From contig NZ_CP060494.1 of the NCBI RefSeq assembly GCF_014334115.1, forward strand, positions 868,001 to 932,000: 64,000 bases of DNA, written 5' to 3'. The position numbers were made by a program, and so were the translations under genes. A model generated the notes under the pieces. That model saw only the letters and a list, made by a program, of their open reading frames with translations. It was not told the DNA's origin and searched no databases. Below, piece by piece: positions 18,661-24,793 of the stretch. Every line of letters begins with the position of its first letter. The stretch's first letter is position 1. The DNA comes from Sphingosinithalassobacter sp. CS137 (GTDB taxonomy: Bacteria; Pseudomonadota; Alphaproteobacteria; Sphingomonadales; Sphingomonadaceae).

Positions 18661-19692
18661 TTAGCCGCCGGTCTTCAACAGATCGTGGCGACGCAGTGCG
18701 TGGCGCAGCTGATCATAGGTAAGACCCAGCGCATCGGCGGTCGCCCGCTGGTTGTGCCGATGCTCGACCAGCGCGCGCGCGAGCAGTTCGCGCTCGAACC
18801 GGGCGACGCGCTCCTTGAAATCCAGCGGCTCGGCGGGATCGGGCGCCGATCCGGCCGGTGCAGCCTCGGGCGCTTCCTTCGGGGATGCCTCGGAATCTGC
18901 CCGAGCCACGGTGCGCGGCCGATAGGGAGAGGCGAAAGGATCGATCTCGATCGCATCGACCGGGCCCTCGCGCTCCCAGCGATAGACCGCGCGCTCGACT
19001 GCGTTGCGCAGCTCGCGCACATTGCCCGGCCAGCTGTGGCTGGCGAGCGCGTCGAGCGCATGCGGCCCGAACCCGGGCCAATCCTCCCATCCGATCTCCG
19101 CGGCCATCCGGCGCCCGAAGAAATCCGCGAGCACTACGATATCGCCGGCGCGCGCGCGCAGCGGCGGGAGCGTGACGACTTCGAAGGAAAGCCGGTCGAG
19201 CAGATCGGCGCGGAAGGTGCCCTGCTGGACTCGATCGGGCAGATGCTCGTTCGTCGCCGCCACGATGCGGACATCGACACGCAGCGGGCGCGACGAACCG
19301 ATCCGCGTGATCTCGCCATATTCGACCGCGCGCAGCAGCCGATCCTGCGCCGCCATCGACAGTGTCCCGAGCTCGTCGAGGAACAGCGTGCCGCCGTCGG
19401 CTTCCTCGAACCGACCAGCGCGGGCCTTGGTGGCGCCAGTGAACGCGCCCGCTTCATGGCCGAACAGCTCGGCCTCGATCAGCGTTTCGGGAAGCGCGGC
19501 GCAGTTCATCACCACCAGCGGCTGATCCCAGCGGGGGCTGAGGCGGTGGAGTCGCTCGGCAACCAGTTCCTTGCCGGTGCCGCGTTCGCCGATCACGAGC
19601 ACCGGCCGGTCGAGCGCGGCCGCGCGGCTGGCGCGTTCGAGCGCGTCGAGGAAGGCCGATGACTGGCCAATGACCTGTGCGGCGCGCTCCAT
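18661..19692 (-). CDS. pspF: sigma-54-dependent psp operon activator PspF
   Basis: 343 residues. PspF is an AAA+ enhancer-binding protein without a receiver domain; PspA inhibits it until envelope stress releases it. The start at 19692 gives a protein beginning [18 protein letters not shown], which lines up with E. coli PspF; an in-frame ATG at 19752 would add 20 residues and place a likely operator inside the gene. Motifs: Walker A GERGTGKE, sigma-54 contact loop GAFTGA, Walker [11 protein letters not shown], and a C-terminal Fis-type helix-turn-helix ([19 protein letters not shown]). An Ala/Pro/Glu-rich linker of about 45 residues precedes the helix-turn-helix. The gene is divergent from the operon it should control. 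Confidence 0.95.
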
Positions 19693-19711: not shown

Positions 19712-19728
19712 TTGCCAAAAGTTGGCAA
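19712..19728. promoter_or_regulatory. perfect palindrome, probable PspF enhancer site
   Basis: Arms TTGCCAA (19712-19718) and TTGGCAA (19722-19728) are exact reverse complements with a 3-nt spacer. It lies about 65-80 nt upstream of the sigma-54 promoter of the psp operon, a usual distance for an upstream activating sequence, and just upstream of the preferred pspF start, so it could also mediate autoregulation. Confidence 0.6.
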
Positions 19729-19792: not shown

Positions 19793-19809
19793 TGGCACGC
19801 TTCCTGCGA
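19793..19809 (+). promoter_or_regulatory. sigma-54 promoter of the psp operon
   Basis: TTGGCAC, five bases, then CTGC: the invariant GG (19794-19795) and GC (19806-19807) are ten bases apart as in -24/-12 promoters. It lies about 60 nt upstream of the first small gene of the operon and opposite pspF, exactly where RpoN/PspF control predicts it. Confidence 0.85.
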
Positions 19810-19869: not shown

Positions 19870-19977
19870 ATGACCACTCAGGGCACCGACATCCGCACCA
19901 CCGCCGCAGCGGTCTTCTGCACCATCGCACTCAGCGCGATCTTCATGCTGGGTTCGGTCGGTCCGGCGATCGCCTGA
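19870..19977 (+). CDS. 35-residue single-helix membrane protein, first gene of the psp operon
   Basis: The start at 19870 is preceded by AGGGA. The peptide has a short polar N-terminus (MTTQGTDIRT) and one hydrophobic helix (about residues 11-33) ending in PAIA. It is the first coding sequence after the sigma-54 promoter and precedes pspA by 107 nt. No enzymatic motif is possible at this size. It may be a membrane-stress signal peptide or a PspA/PspC partner, which is inference from location. A leader role in setting pspA expression is an alternative, given the hairpins that follow. Confidence 0.7.
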   Translation: MTTQGTDIRTTAAAVFCTIALSAIFMLGSVGPAIA

Positions 19978-20084: not shown

Positions 20085-20753
20085 ATGGGCATTTTTTCGC
20101 GAACCCGCGACATCATCGCCGCCAACGTCACCGACCTTCTCGACAAGGCCGAAGACCCGGCGAAGATGATCCGCATGATCATCCTCGAGATGGAAGAGAC
20201 GCTGGTCGAGGTCCGCGCCTCCGCCGCGCGCACCATCGCCGATCAGAAGGAAATGCGGCGCCACATCGCGAAGCTCGACAAGCTCCAGGAGAGCTGGACC
20301 GAGAAGGCCGAGCTGGCACTGAGCAAGGGTCGCGAGGACCTCGCCAAGGCGGCGCTGGTCGAGAAGCAGAAGGCTGCCGACATGTGCGATCAGCTGACCG
20401 GCGAAATCGCCGTTCTCGACGAATCGCTCAAGGCGTCCGAGGCGGACATCCAGAAGCTGCAGAACAAGCTGCGCGAGGCGCGTGCCCGCCAGAACACGAT
20501 CATGACGCGGCTGGAGAGCGCCAACAATCGCTATCGCCTGCGCGAGATGACCAATGGCGCCAAAGTGCACGACGCCTTCTCGCGTTTCGACATGCTCGAG
20601 CGTCGGGTCGACCTTGCCGAAGGCCGCGCCGATGCGGCGGGCATGGGTGGCGAGCCCAAGAGCCTGGAGGAAGAGATCGCCGAGTTGCGCTCTTCCGAGA
20701 AGGTCGATGCGGAGCTGGAAGCGCTCAAGGCGCGGATGAACAAGGGAAGCTGA
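20085..20753 (+). CDS. pspA: phage shock protein A
   Basis: 222 residues, ESCRT-III-like. PspA binds and holds PspF when idle and assembles on damaged inner membrane under stress. Signature features: amphipathic N-terminus MGIFSRTRDIIAANVTDLLD, then KAEDPAKMIRMIILEMEETL, long coiled coils (about residues 25-185), the conserved RYRLREMTNGAKVHDAFSRF stretch, and the end segment SLEEEIAELRSS. ATG at 20085 follows AAGGAG. It is the second gene behind the sigma-54 promoter; pspB starts 4 nt after its stop. Confidence 0.97.
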   Translation: MGIFSRTRDIIAANVTDLLDKAEDPAKMIRMIILEMEETLVEVRASAARTIADQKEMRRHIAKLDKLQESWTEKAELALSKGREDLAKAALVEKQKAADMCDQLTGEIAVLDESLKASEADIQKLQNKLREARARQNTIMTRLESANNRYRLREMTNGAKVHDAFSRFDMLERRVDLAEGRADAAGMGGEPKSLEEEIAELRSSEKVDAELEALKARMNKGS

Positions 20754-20757
20754 TCCG

Positions 20758-21036
20758 ATGGATGAAGTTATCGTCCCACTCATGGTCGTGGGCATGCTCT
20801 TCATCGGGCTGCCCTGGGTAATCATGCACTATGTCACCAAGTGGAAGCAGTCGGCGAGCATCACCGGCGAAGACGAGAAGCTGCTCGACGATCTCCACTA
20901 CACCGCCCGGCGCCTCGAGGACCGGCTCCAGACGATCGAACGCATCGTCGCCGCCGACAACCCCGACTTCCGCCCGGCACCGCCCGCCGCGGGCCCGTCC
21001 GAACCGGGGCCCTATGACTACACCAGGAGGAACTGA
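20758..21036 (+). CDS. pspB: phage shock protein B
   Basis: 92 residues. An N-terminal helix (residues 5-25, VPLMVVGMLFIGLPWVIMHYV) is followed by a basic patch KWKQSASITGEDEKLLDD and a coiled coil RRLEDRLQTIERIVAADNP, typical of PspB, which with PspC senses membrane stress and relieves PspA inhibition of PspF. A Pro-rich tail of about 20 residues ends the protein. It sits directly between pspA and pspC. The C-terminal coil has the same LExR..xxERI pattern as the small proteins further downstream. Confidence 0.93.
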   Translation: MDEVIVPLMVVGMLFIGLPWVIMHYVTKWKQSASITGEDEKLLDDLHYTARRLEDRLQTIERIVAADNPDFRPAPPAAGPSEPGPYDYTRRN

Positions 21037-21037
21037 G

Positions 21038-21415
21038 ATGTCCGTCAGCCGTACCCGCTTCTATCTCGACAAGCAGAATGCCAAATGGCTGGGCGTCTGT
21101 TCGGGCCTCGCGGACTATACCGGCATCGATCCGGTCTGGCTGCGGGTGGGCTTCGCGCTCTTCACCTTCATGACCTTCCCGGTCGGGCTGATCGCCTATC
21201 TGCTGATCGCATGGTTCGCTCCGGCGCGGCCAAAAGGCCTCTACGAGAATCCGGAGGACGCGAAATTCTGGCAGGGCGTGCGGAGCAATCCGCGCCGATC
21301 GACCCACGAGGTCCGCTCCAAGTTCCGGGACATCGACCGCCGGCTCGCCGACATCGAGATGTATTACACGAGCCGCAACACGCGCCTTTCGGACGAGATC
21401 GACAGCCTGCGCTGA
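21038..21415 (+). CDS. pspC: phage shock protein C, PspC-domain envelope stress protein
   Basis: 125 residues from ATG at 21038, one base after the pspB stop region and behind AGGAGG. The PspC domain spans about residues 5-65 (LDKQNAKWLGVCSGLADYTG, then IDPVWLRVGFALFTF and a membrane helix with FPVGLIAYLLIAWF). The remainder is a cytoplasmic tail ending in a coiled region DIDRRLADIEMYYTSRN. PspC binds PspA at the membrane to induce the response. Length and order agree with other alphaproteobacterial operons. Confidence 0.94.
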   Translation: MSVSRTRFYLDKQNAKWLGVCSGLADYTGIDPVWLRVGFALFTFMTFPVGLIAYLLIAWFAPARPKGLYENPEDAKFWQGVRSNPRRSTHEVRSKFRDIDRRLADIEMYYTSRNTRLSDEIDSLR

Positions 21416-21445
21416 TCGGCGGACGAAGCCAAAGGGAGAAGAAAC

Positions 21446-21748
21446 ATGAGCTGGGGTGGCCCCGCCTTCATCCTCGCACTGGTCCTGGTTTCGACCATCG
21501 GCTGGGTCGCGACGAGCTGGATCCGCGCCCGCCACGGCTATCCGGTGGAAAACGAGTGGGGCGGCAGCAGCCATCGCACCGATCCGGAAGCCGAACGCAA
21601 GGTGGCGCTGCTCGCCCAGGAGAACGAGCGCCTCACCGGCCAGGTGAGCCGGCTGGAGGAACGGATCGCCGTGCTCGAGCGGATCGCCACCGATCCGGCA
21701 GAACGCACCGCTCGCGAGATCGAACGGCTGCGCGACACCAACGACTGA
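21446..21748 (+). CDS. small membrane coiled-coil protein, psp operon (PspB-like paralogue 1)
   Basis: 100 residues behind AGGGAGA. One helix (about residues 5-25, PAFILALVLVSTIGWVATSW), a polar linker (YPVENEWGGSSHRTDPEAER), then a coiled coil with the core RLEERIAVLERIATD and the end REIERLRDTND. The coil closely resembles the genes at 21762 and 22229, and more distantly PspB. It probably works at the inner membrane with PspB/PspC, but no named family could be assigned with certainty. Confidence 0.85.
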   Translation: MSWGGPAFILALVLVSTIGWVATSWIRARHGYPVENEWGGSSHRTDPEAERKVALLAQENERLTGQVSRLEERIAVLERIATDPAERTAREIERLRDTND

Positions 21749-21761
21749 CGGGAGAGCTTCA

Positions 21762-22034
21762 ATGGACGGCCTGTACACGCTTGGCTTCTTCATGATCGTC
21801 GTCGGCATCCCCGTGATCTTCGGGATCGGCTACGCGACCTTCGAGAAGTGGCTCGACCACAAGGAAAAGATGGGCGAGCGGCTCGCCGCCGAGACCGCCG
21901 AGAAAGCCGCGCAATATGCCGCCCACGTCGAGCGGCTGGAGCAGCGGGTCCGCGTGCTCGAGCGCATCGCCACCGACCGCGGCGCCGATGTCGCCGCCGA
22001 AATCGAACGCCTGCGCGATCAGCCGCTCAACTGA
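21762..22034 (+). CDS. small membrane coiled-coil protein, psp operon (PspB-like paralogue 2)
   Basis: 90 residues, 13 nt after the previous stop, with GGGAGA upstream. N-terminal helix (residues 5-26, TLGFFMIVVGIPVIFGIGYA), a charged stretch KWLDHKEKMGERLAAET, and the coil RLEQRVRVLERIATDRG followed by AAEIERLRDQPLN. Of all the copies it keeps the most PspB-like N-terminal half. The repeated coil is also recognisable at the nucleotide level, which speaks for tandem gene duplication. Confidence 0.85.
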   Translation: MDGLYTLGFFMIVVGIPVIFGIGYATFEKWLDHKEKMGERLAAETAEKAAQYAAHVERLEQRVRVLERIATDRGADVAAEIERLRDQPLN

Positions 22035-22065
22035 GCGCGACCGCAGATCAAAGGGAAGAATCGCA

Positions 22066-22206
22066 ATGTCCGCACTGATCATCTTCGTCGCCATCCTCGC
22101 GCTCATCACCGCGGTGGCATGCTACTTCACCGAACGGGTGGACCGCCCGATCCGCCGCGCCGAACGCCTCGCCGCACAGGCGAAGCGCGAAACCGAAGCC
22201 GCCTGA
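22066..22206 (+). CDS. 46-residue membrane protein, psp operon
   Basis: Start at 22066 after AAGGGAAG. One helix (residues 3-20, ALIIFVAILALITAVACY) and a short, basic, helical tail (RPIRRAERLAAQAKRETEAA). It lacks the ERI coiled-coil core of its neighbours, so it is either a strongly shortened copy or an unrelated member. Position and spacing indicate co-translation with the psp genes. Function unknown. Confidence 0.7.
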   Translation: MSALIIFVAILALITAVACYFTERVDRPIRRAERLAAQAKRETEAA

Positions 22207-22228
22207 ACTCAACACCGGGAGACGACCA

Positions 22229-22480
22229 ATGGACCCGTTCGAAATGGTGGTCGCGATCATCATCGTCGTGACGATCGGCAAGGTGCTCCAGGCCCGCTTT
22301 CGGGCCTCGGAGCGGCGCTCGGAAGATCCGACGGAGAATATCGACGCGCTCCGCATGCGCGACGAGATCCGGACGCTGAAGGAGCGGATCGCCGTTCTGG
22401 AACGCGTGATCACCGACAATAATCGCAGCATCGAACTCGATCGCGAAATCGAGCGGCTGCGCGACAACAACCGCGTCTGA
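22229..22480 (+). CDS. small membrane coiled-coil protein, psp operon (PspB-like paralogue 3)
   Basis: 83 residues behind GGGAGA. Helix at about residues 4-20 (FEMVVAIIIVVTIGKVL), a basic linker (QARFRASERRSEDPTEN), then TLKERIAVLERVITDNN and REIERLRDNNRV. The coil is nearly superimposable on that of the gene at 21446 (shared core KERIAVLER or EERIAVLER and EIERLRD). Such identity across separate small genes supports recent duplication and a common binding partner. Confidence 0.84.
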   Translation: MDPFEMVVAIIIVVTIGKVLQARFRASERRSEDPTENIDALRMRDEIRTLKERIAVLERVITDNNRSIELDREIERLRDNNRV

Positions 22481-22494
22481 CGGGAGGAGACGAC

Positions 22495-22749
22495 GTGACT
22501 CAGGATCCCAATCTCTACATCACCCTGTCGCTGGCCGGTCTGGTTGCCGTCGCGATGGTCACGGCCGCGGGACTGGCCGGCTGGCGCGGCTGGCTGGCGC
22601 TGAAGCGGCAGGAACTCGGCGCGCGCTTCGGTGGGGATCGCGACGACAGCCCCGCCCCGGCCCCGTCCGCCGCATCGCGGATCGAAATCGCCGACCTGAA
22701 GGAGCGTATCCGCAAACTCGAGGCGATCGCCGCCGGAGTCGATCTCTGA
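22495..22749 (+). CDS. small membrane coiled-coil protein, last gene of the psp array
   Basis: 84 residues, GTG start behind GGGAGGAG. Helix at about residues 8-28 (ITLSLAGLVAVAMVTAAGLA), a polar Ala/Pro linker (DDSPAPAPSAAS) and a short coil EIADLKERIRKLEAIAAG. The coil again has the KERI core but lacks the EIERLRD end. An inverted repeat follows 7 nt after the stop, marking the probable end of the operon. Confidence 0.8.
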   Translation: MTQDPNLYITLSLAGLVAVAMVTAAGLAGWRGWLALKRQELGARFGGDRDDSPAPAPSAASRIEIADLKERIRKLEAIAAGVDL

Positions 22750-22832: not shown

Positions 22833-23243
22833 ATGGCCAGTCTAGCCGACATCCGCGACGAATATAGCTTCCTCGAAGCCGACGACCGCTACCGGCTGTT
22901 GATCGACCTTGGACGCGATCTCGAACCGATGCCCGAAGCGCTCAAGACCGACGCGACACTGGTTCGCGGCTGCTCCGCGGCGGTTTGGGTCTATCCGACG
23001 GTCCACGACGACGGCAGGCTCCATTTCCTCGCCGATTCGAATGCGGCGATCACCAAGGGGATCATCGCTCTGGTGCTGCTGACCGTGCAGGACCGCACGG
23101 CGGCGGAAATCATCGCCACCGACATCGAGCGCGAACTGGAGCCGTTCGACCTTCGCAATCAGCTCAGCTCGAACCGGACCCAGGGCATCCCCAACATGAT
23201 CGCACTGATCCGCAGCACTGCCGAGCGCTATTCCGGCGACTGA
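22833..23243 (+). CDS. sufE: cysteine desulfuration protein SufE
   Basis: 136 residues from ATG at 22833. SufE accepts persulfide sulfur from a cysteine desulfurase and passes it on for Fe-S cluster assembly. The active Cys lies in LVRGCSAAVWVYP (about residue 50), and the family blocks DDRYRLLIDLGRDLEPMP, SNAAITKGIIALVL and NRTQGIPNMIALIR are visible. Its desulfurase partner is not adjacent; two desulfurase-like genes lie at 42955-45128. The last 16 nt overlap the convergent ferredoxin-like gene. Confidence 0.95.
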   Translation: MASLADIRDEYSFLEADDRYRLLIDLGRDLEPMPEALKTDATLVRGCSAAVWVYPTVHDDGRLHFLADSNAAITKGIIALVLLTVQDRTAAEIIATDIERELEPFDLRNQLSSNRTQGIPNMIALIRSTAERYSGD

Positions 23244-24417: not shown

Positions 24418-24428
24418 TCGGAAGAAAC

Positions 24429-24793
24429 GGCCAGAGGGTCTGTAAGCCGGGTTCTGTCCACCGCATCGCTGCGGATGGGCGACCATTCCTCTAGCCCCGC
24501 AGTCGCCTGCGGAGTCCAGCAACCAACCCGGGCCGCGAGGCGGAACACCTCATGCGCGGCCCCTATTCGGTCTTGCTCCCGGTGGGGTTTGCCGTGCCGC
24601 TCCCGTTACCGGTCGCGCGGTGCGCTCTTACCGCACCCTTTCACCATGGCGAGGCCGAAGCCCGCGCCGTCTGCTCTCTGTGGCACTTTCCCTGGGGTTG
24701 CCCCCGGCGGGCGTTACCCGCCACCGTTGTTCCGTGGAGCCCGGACTTTCCTCGGGTGCCCTAAGGCACACGCGGCCGCCCGACCCTCTGGCC
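24429..24793 (-). ncRNA. rnpB: RNase P RNA (bacterial class A)
   Basis: The catalytic RNA of RNase P, which cuts tRNA 5' leaders. The universally conserved 5' segment GAGGAAAGTCCGGGCTCCAC is present (minus strand, near 24735-24753), and the 3' region contains CCCGGCTTACAGA. Terminal bases GGCCAGAGGGTC (5' end) and GACCCTCTGGCC (3' end) are perfectly complementary over 12 bp and form helix P1, which sets the ends to within a few bases. The 365-nt length is normal. The gene stands alone between a small Cys protein and a 97-residue unknown. Confidence 0.96.

Follow-up and report, generated by a model that had tools for sequence, protein, structure and literature searches.

The psp operon of Sphingosinithalassobacter sp. 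CS137, a member of the Sphingomonadaceae, is extended behind pspC by an array of five small genes, here named O1 to O5. Four of them encode coiled-coil membrane proteins with a common tail, which is shortened in O5 and in O1, O2 and O4 resembles the C-terminal tail of PspC. The array lies in a stretch of 64,000 nucleotides (positions 868,001 to 932,000 of contig NZ_CP060494.1), here called the window, to which all coordinates refer unless stated otherwise. A previous, sequence-only reading of the window had already pointed to five small genes after pspABC, and this observation of an extended psp operon was confirmed: all five starts were right, and each gene displayed a purine-rich ribosome site directly upstream (judged by eye). 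Regarding their role, we lean slightly towards a reading in which the O proteins would be added single-pass membrane adaptors that offer docking sites to PspA under membrane stress.

Genes pspA (20085..20753), pspB (20758..21036) and pspC (21038..21415) lie on the forward strand, as does the array, and were recognized above the respective cut-offs by TIGR02977 (283.7 bits) for PspA, PF06667 (88.4 bits) and TIGR02976 (81.5 bits) for PspB, and PF04024 (62.3 bits) and TIGR02978 (106.1 bits) for PspC. O1 (21446..21748), which belongs to line O1a, encodes 100 amino acids (aa) with one transmembrane (TM) helix, an RxRHGYP juxtamembrane motif, a coiled coil and a tail. O2 (21762..22034; 90 aa) displays one TM helix, a coiled coil and a tail with an RDQPLN end, and O4 (22229..22480; 83 aa) one TM helix, a coiled coil and a tail. 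O5 (22495..22749; 84 aa, GTG start) combines one TM helix with a short C-terminal coil, IEIADLKERIRKLEAIAAGVDL. O3 (22066..22206), whose start was placed at an internal Met within a longer listed frame, encodes a single-TM peptide of 46 aa that has no coil and stands outside the coil family. The earlier description of helix plus coiled coil thus applied to four of the five proteins and failed for O3.

The tails share a common core, which reads LEERIAVLERIATD in O1, LEQRVRVLERIATD in O2 and LKERIAVLERVITD in O4, each followed by EIERLRD. The tail of O5 is shortened and retains LKERIRKLEAIA at its extreme C-terminus, while PspB carries a looser version of the motif, RLEDRLQTIERIVAAD. All this agreed with the sequence-only reading, which had nevertheless missed that the motif is fuller in the C-terminus of PspC (RRLADIEMYYTSRNTRLSDEIDSLR) than in PspB. 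The coiled coil of the O tails terminates in the segment RLxxLExIVTDxxxxLxxEIxxLR of the PspC C-terminus.

Sequences from 80 related loci and the window were sorted into groups O1a (78 sequences), O1b (52), O2 (66), O3 (33), O4 (67), O5 (78) and OX (5). Their tails, delimited by hand, were compared by profile (hhalign), with 40 shuffles per pair that preserved the hydrophobic pattern. Tails of O1a, O1b, O2, O4 and OX matched one another with 97-99% probability, which none of the 40 shuffles reached for any pair, and full-length O1a matched O1b with 99.8%. The PspC tail matched those of OX (96%), O1b (95%), O2 (92%), O1a (89%) and O4 (84%), and the PspB tail those of O1a (90%), O2 (81%), O1b (78%), O4 (63%) and OX (50%), each with 0/40 shuffles as high. 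The O5 tail was related to O4 (80%) and O1a (50%), again with 0/40. By these profile comparisons, four of the five tail lines (O1b, O2, O4 and OX) have their closest canonical match in the C-terminal tail of PspC and not in PspB, O1a being equally near both. A C-terminal tail of the PspC type was accordingly recognized in O4, O1a, O2, O1b and OX, and not in O5.

Searches of the whole genome were specific to the psp locus. With O1 as the query, O2 (1.3e-7) and O4 (7.9e-4) were retrieved, the next best match standing at 1.1. An independent profile (A8) was composed of 17 relatives, mostly lone genes and none from the Sphingomonadaceae. When the entire genome of 3.19 Mb was scanned with this profile at E<=10, five matches only were obtained, all in the psp locus: O2 (3.7e-16), O4 (1.2e-15), O1 (3.4e-10), O5 (0.001) and PspB (0.005), which this profile also catches at weak scores. 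O2, O4, O1 and O5 were thus matched by the full-length profile of a lone-gene family from other Proteobacteria. A related profile, built with the O4 of the window and with two further O4-type genes from the Sphingomonadaceae among its members, reached the PspC tail at 0.011, and its first match beyond the locus was at 0.29. These genome-wide matches place O5 in the family and make PspC, and probably PspB, relatives of that family.

The coils are short and of low complexity, O5 is weakly related and several library matches were ordinary coiled coils, as would be expected if unrelated small membrane proteins looked alike because heptads look alike. Such convergence is very improbable, since 0/40 shuffles reached the scores observed among O1a, O1b, O2, O4 and OX, full-length O1a and O1b match closely, and the profile search was specific to the locus; convergent heptads were ruled out by the pattern-preserving shuffles together with that search. 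The coils were therefore not found to be unrelated, and the paralogy claimed for them earlier held.

None of O1 to O5 reached a curated Pfam or NCBIfam cut-off. PF06667 (Pfam cut-off 25.6) scored 15.4 bits on O2 and 16.4 on O4, and TIGR02976 (NCBIfam cut-off 51.7) scored 22.1 bits on O2 (E of 1.3e-4), 16.8 on O4 (0.006) and 10.0 on O1, all below cut-off; O3 and O5 matched neither of these PspB models. The PspC domain PF04024 was not matched by any of the five at E<=1. Pfam and NCBIfam both hold PspD and PspG families, and none of those so named matched O1 to O5 at E<=1. A search of solved structures returned no relative of PspB or PspC, the best matches being leucine-zipper proteins at weak scores (E about 0.03), and plasmids searched with O2 gave no match.

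Our proposal draws on three papers on the contact between PspC and PspA. The C-terminal cytoplasmic domain of PspC binds PspA in the on state, PspF being released (PMC5596341). V125 of Yersinia PspC is needed for PspA binding, and a change of V105 in Escherichia coli stops PspC-dependent signalling (PMC6003685). In E. coli, PspB self-associates and the PspC zipper is required for contact with PspA (PMC3068692). E. coli PspC (119 aa) ends in ...RLREMERYVTSDTFTLRSRFRQL, and V105 is located within ERYVTS, aligned to the V, A or I of ERIVTD, ERIATD and ERVITD; it therefore falls in a motif common with the ERIVTD of the O tails. This literature and the common tail motif together led to the proposal of tail-bearing anchors that would add PspA docking sites. 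The O proteins would use their coils to pair among themselves and with PspB and PspC, and under membrane stress their tails would serve as extra docking sites, pulling PspA off PspF and keeping more of it at the membrane. Each line, with a TM helix and a juxtamembrane region of its own, may respond to a different membrane state. The amount of array proteins would grow in step with PspA, because the O genes sit in the operon they would help to induce. As suggested in the sequence-only reading, the array may constitute a diversified sensor or scaffold set, perhaps forming hetero-oligomers with PspA or PspC.

The main rival, which we regard as unlikely, takes the O proteins for PspB-like silencers: their tails would pair with the C-terminal domain of PspC, hold the off state, set several thresholds for PspA release and raise the bar for induction. 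The resemblance of the PspB tail to the tails of five lines, the TIGR02976 scores of O2 and O4 and a one-TM layout as in PspB are consistent with this, and competition between PspB and PspA for the tail of PspC was reportedly described by Flores-Kim and Darwin in 2015. However, four of the five tail lines were nearer to PspC than to PspB and display a TD...EIxxLR end that PspB lacks. A natural case also bears on this choice. In one genome of the Sphingomonadaceae (G053, L106:55-1656), 3 bases separate the end of pspA from pspC, pspB being absent at this place, and the PspC product of 88 aa ends before the tail, the TIGR02978 match covering positions 3-67 of 121 only. Behind this pspC come two full-tailed O genes, one of O2 type (83 aa) and one of O4 type (78 aa); neither O5 nor sufE was seen in the stretch read. 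A tail-less PspC accompanied by full-tailed O genes is as expected if O tails can replace the tail of PspC. That two O genes were kept although the PspC tail is gone speaks against silencers and does not decide the matter.

The array was conserved among sphingomonads. The loci considered represent the 80 top-ranking PspA relatives out of 536, and their titles indicate sphingomonads except for a few bins named only to higher rank; their start codons were assigned by a simple ribosome-site rule, which set some PspB, O2 and O4 starts clearly too late. When an array was counted as complete if O5 was found, complete arrays occurred in 78 out of 81 loci, the window included. The remaining three (L036, L069 and L080) were cut by contig ends 26, 136 and 169 bases past the last called gene. 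Synteny of pspABC with small genes behind them was thus borne out in all 78 loci that no contig end interrupts, in a near-fixed order: O5 came last in 78/78 complete arrays, and the order OX-O1a-O1b-O2-O3-O4-O5 was broken in four loci only. Gaps after pspC were of at most 60 bp in 352 out of 375 cases. Arrays comprised two to nine genes, O3 included, most often four (26 loci), five (24) or six (17). The largest, of nine genes, was that of Sphingosinicella terrae (L061:7446-10187), with three O1a, two O1b and two O4 genes. Fresh copies were encountered as extra O1a, O1b and O4 genes in this same locus and as two O1a genes in each of L024, L044 and L068. The second O4 of L072 is an artefact, because the start rule had cut an O1-type gene and left its end among the 67 'O4' rows.

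In a tree of the tails (88 columns, 65 rows, many forks open), O1a (99/95), O1b (99/97) and O2 (99/96) each formed a single clade. O1a and O1b were sisters (97/86), O4 was not one clade, and OX was placed with the PspC tails (99/97) on a long branch. As the clades of O1a, O1b and O2 span species, the duplications are mostly old, giving conserved distinct lines with few fresh copies, and purely recent tandem copies were ruled out. The origin by duplication within the operon, proposed earlier, was supported.

Ratios of nonsynonymous to synonymous substitution rates (dN/dS) were taken from close pairs, replacing all-pairs values that were near saturation; the tail, defined as the last 32 columns, was compared with the rest of the same protein. 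Tail versus rest amounted to 0.24 versus 0.70 in O1a, 0.42 versus 0.51 in O1b, 0.29 versus 0.65 in O2, 0.47 versus 0.70 in O4, 0.32 versus 0.62 in O5 and 0.22 versus 0.46 in PspC. PspB was reversed (tail 0.63, rest 0.37); in this protein the last 32 columns coincide with a variable end, the probable cause of the reversal. The O tails are under purifying selection, and a dN/dS near 1, which the sequence-only reading had named as a sign of absent coding conservation that would refute it, did not apply to them (0.24-0.47). A copy number varying from two to nine and values of 0.51-0.70 outside the tails could point to decaying duplicates devoid of function. That explanation is hardly credible in view of the near-fixed order and the constant last position of O5, and for the tails it is refuted by their dN/dS. 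O3 displayed values of 0.66-0.67 throughout. Its peptides of 40-46 aa, present in 33 out of 78 complete arrays, carry DRPxRRAxRLA-like residues past the helix; O3 was ruled out as a coil-family member by its length, its lack of a coil and its dN/dS of 0.67.

Relatives extended well beyond the Sphingomonadaceae. The O1 profile matched 116 out of 147 genomes drawn from the order, 64 from the Sphingomonadaceae and 52 from other families. All 64 Sphingomonadaceae genomes listed matched, and 11 non-matching genomes stood outside that listing, with no kinship given. Matches in the 52 genomes were mostly single and weak. Loci read from 15 of these contained a gene of ~73-90 aa, often with an M..FEMVV.IV.I start, and a tail of the form LERIVTDKS..L..EIDxL. 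There was mostly one such gene per genome, with two in G015 and G054. L100, L102 and L119, which come from other families of the order, have it inside the psp operon, behind an additional pspC of shorter length; at the remaining loci of these 15 genomes, no psp gene was seen in the stretch read. Among the array lines, O4 was nearest to these lone-gene relatives in its N-terminus. Another family of the class provided two adjacent members near dut- and coaBC-like genes (by eye), whose nearest named relative was from an uncultured Hyphomonas, and further members occurred in marine gammaproteobacteria such as Thalassotalea, Colwellia and Pseudoalteromonas. Class-wide, the family was sparse: profile A6 matched 11 out of 289 genomes, four of them from the Sphingomonadaceae and some of the rest through PspB. 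Phylum-wide, 26 out of 249 genomes matched, including ten from the Sphingomonadaceae; some weak matches at class and phylum level were PspB itself (L128, L129). At E<=0.001, 6416 out of 7997 scored candidates matched, array members included and only candidates sharing most words being scored. Among 120 relatives listed for A6, 118 lacked a Pfam domain and two carried PF06667. Public names were mixed, mostly hypothetical protein, with Phage shock protein B, phage shock protein C, YlxW and DUF632 also in use.

That relatives in other Proteobacteria are mostly lone genes apart from pspA would suit another explanation, in which the coils are structural effectors that stabilise the inner membrane in patches or hold other clients, with no part in the PspA-PspF switch. 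The absence of a PspA-docking-like end in O5 and of a coil in O3 is in line with it, as are the leucine-zipper proteins that headed the solved-structure matches. We judge it improbable, given the operon position, the PspC-like tail and the presence of both PspA and PspC, over cut-off, in 26/26 relative-bearing genomes, these having been chosen by hand among genomes with matches.

In seven out of eight one-TM families (PspB and O3 counted), 89-100% of members had a more positive charge on the C-side of the TM helix than on its N-side. The O proteins are thus predicted to possess one N-terminal TM helix with the C-terminus inside, as in PspB, O1a being ambiguous; a cytoplasmic position is predicted for the coil, because the positive side follows the N-terminal TM helix in most families, O1a excepted. 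The predicted structure of O1 consisted of helices 6-30 and 47-99, with a mean predicted local distance difference test (pLDDT) of 73. In most members of O1a and O1b, the TM helix is directly followed by a highly conserved juxtamembrane motif, TW.R.K[HN]GYP, which reads RARHGYP in the window and is a possible sensing element.

Several observations weigh against PspA-docking adaptors. The positive-inside contrast was missing in O1a (38% of members), and the models of PspC and O1 were of low to moderate confidence and made of helices only (predicted template modelling score, pTM, 0.35 for both). O5 lacks the EIxxLR end; its score against PspC was matched by 12/40 shuffles, and its 6% against PspB was barely above chance (1/40). 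A direct comparison of PspB with PspC was at chance level (4/40). In the window, the tails of O1, O2 and O4 carry A, A and I, respectively, where V105 would align. G053 is a single genome, in which pspB was not sought elsewhere. Nine of 14 control genomes held PspA, seven PspC and four both, and they are not a matched background for the 26 hand-chosen genomes. Finally, no consistent sigma-54 site was found upstream of 24 relatives, three of them inside psp operons: at most 8/200 shuffles scored as well in 4/24, about one being expected, with distances of 116-202. The family therefore need not belong to the PspF regulon outside sphingomonads.

By its layout (same strand, short gaps, position behind a sigma-54 site), the array is predicted to be part of a psp operon controlled by sigma-54 and PspF. 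The divergent pspF (18661..19692, reverse strand), encoding the sigma-54 enhancer-binding activator, was recognized by TIGR02974 with 483.7 bits (cut-off 443.55); its open frame extends to 19752, and the start, set at an internal Met at 19692, is uncertain. An inverted repeat TTGCCAA-AAG-TTGGCAA (19712..19728, no strand assigned), spotted by eye, is a candidate PspF enhancer site. A sigma-54 -24/-12 site, TGGCACGCTTCCTGC, lies at 19793..19807 on the forward strand, and the exact pattern occurred once upstream of pspA in 78 out of 80 related loci. Between this site and pspA lies a small leader open reading frame (ORF) of 35 aa (19870..19977, forward strand), which starts 62 bases past the site, encodes a single hydrophobic helix and has the C-terminus ...GSVGPAIA. 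A comparable ORF was present at the same place in 67 out of 79 site-bearing loci (66 with ATG), versus 27 out of 1580 random positions; scans of Pfam and NCBIfam returned nothing for it at E<=0.01. The array is bordered by a sufE-like gene (22833..23243, forward strand; PF02657, 117.9 bits, cut-off 27), which is not a member and was found downstream in 65 out of the 78 complete-array loci. A Rfam search near the locus revealed RNase P only, as a class A bacterial RNase P RNA gene at 24427-24791 on the reverse strand.

The array was absent from the expression literature searched. For Zymomonas mobilis, a member of the same order, up-regulation is reported under xylose (pspA, pspB, pspC and ZMO1062) and under ethanol (pspA, pspB and pspC), and a response to temperature for ZMO1062 and pspA; the available parts of these papers do not mention the array genes (PMC8645129, PMC3495753, PMC8237431). 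ZMO1062, labelled 'putative phage shock protein pspD', is listed beside pspA with a similar temperature response (PMC8237431). By locus-tag order, the 35-aa leader ORF may match ZMO1062.

Like the O proteins, PspB (PF06667, TIGR02976) is encoded in the psp operon and has one TM helix at its N-terminus and a short helical tail in the cytoplasm with a RIxxLExI core. In contrast to PspB, O1 to O5 fall below the cut-offs or do not match and have mostly longer coils, and O1a, O1b, O2, O4 and OX add the TD...EIxxLR end. The C-terminal domain of PspC shares with the O tails a motif that includes the position needed for PspA binding in Yersinia, whereas the O proteins have no PF04024 domain and a single TM helix. 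PspD and PspG are accessory small membrane proteins of Psp regulons, like the O proteins, which nevertheless match no family of either name. Self-association has been described for PspG (PMC3068692). Ravi et al. 2024 (PMC11237479) mention, in one clause of the accessible text, 'PspB duplicates' in psp operons (accession AOL22920.1), which like the array are extra PspB-like genes in the operon, and also state that PspC can carry a divergent PspB fused at its C-terminus. The same text offers no array, motif, distribution or mechanism for these duplicates, and its main text lacks any word that begins with 'Sphingo'; the accessible part of Popp et al. 2022 (PMC9239133) makes no mention of the array. 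No other description of it was found in the literature searched, most subscription papers lying outside that literature. The earlier statement that no description was known is qualified by this one clause.

More tentatively, and with considerable doubt, the O proteins could belong to a widespread family of single-pass adaptors that carry the PspC docking tail and no sensor domain, and that would be a general third membrane component of the proteobacterial Psp system. Usually a lone gene, it would have been drawn into the operon in the Sphingomonadaceae and split there into six coil lines, with up to nine genes per array. These would form mixed coiled-coil receptors, a combinatorial stress sensor able to replace a tail-less PspC. 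A docking-type tail borne by several different anchors would provide natural variants in which sensing, by the TM helix and juxtamembrane region, can be told apart from docking by the tail. The family looks large, and naming it would improve annotation, because nearly all of its listed relatives are without a Pfam domain and mostly go by hypothetical protein.

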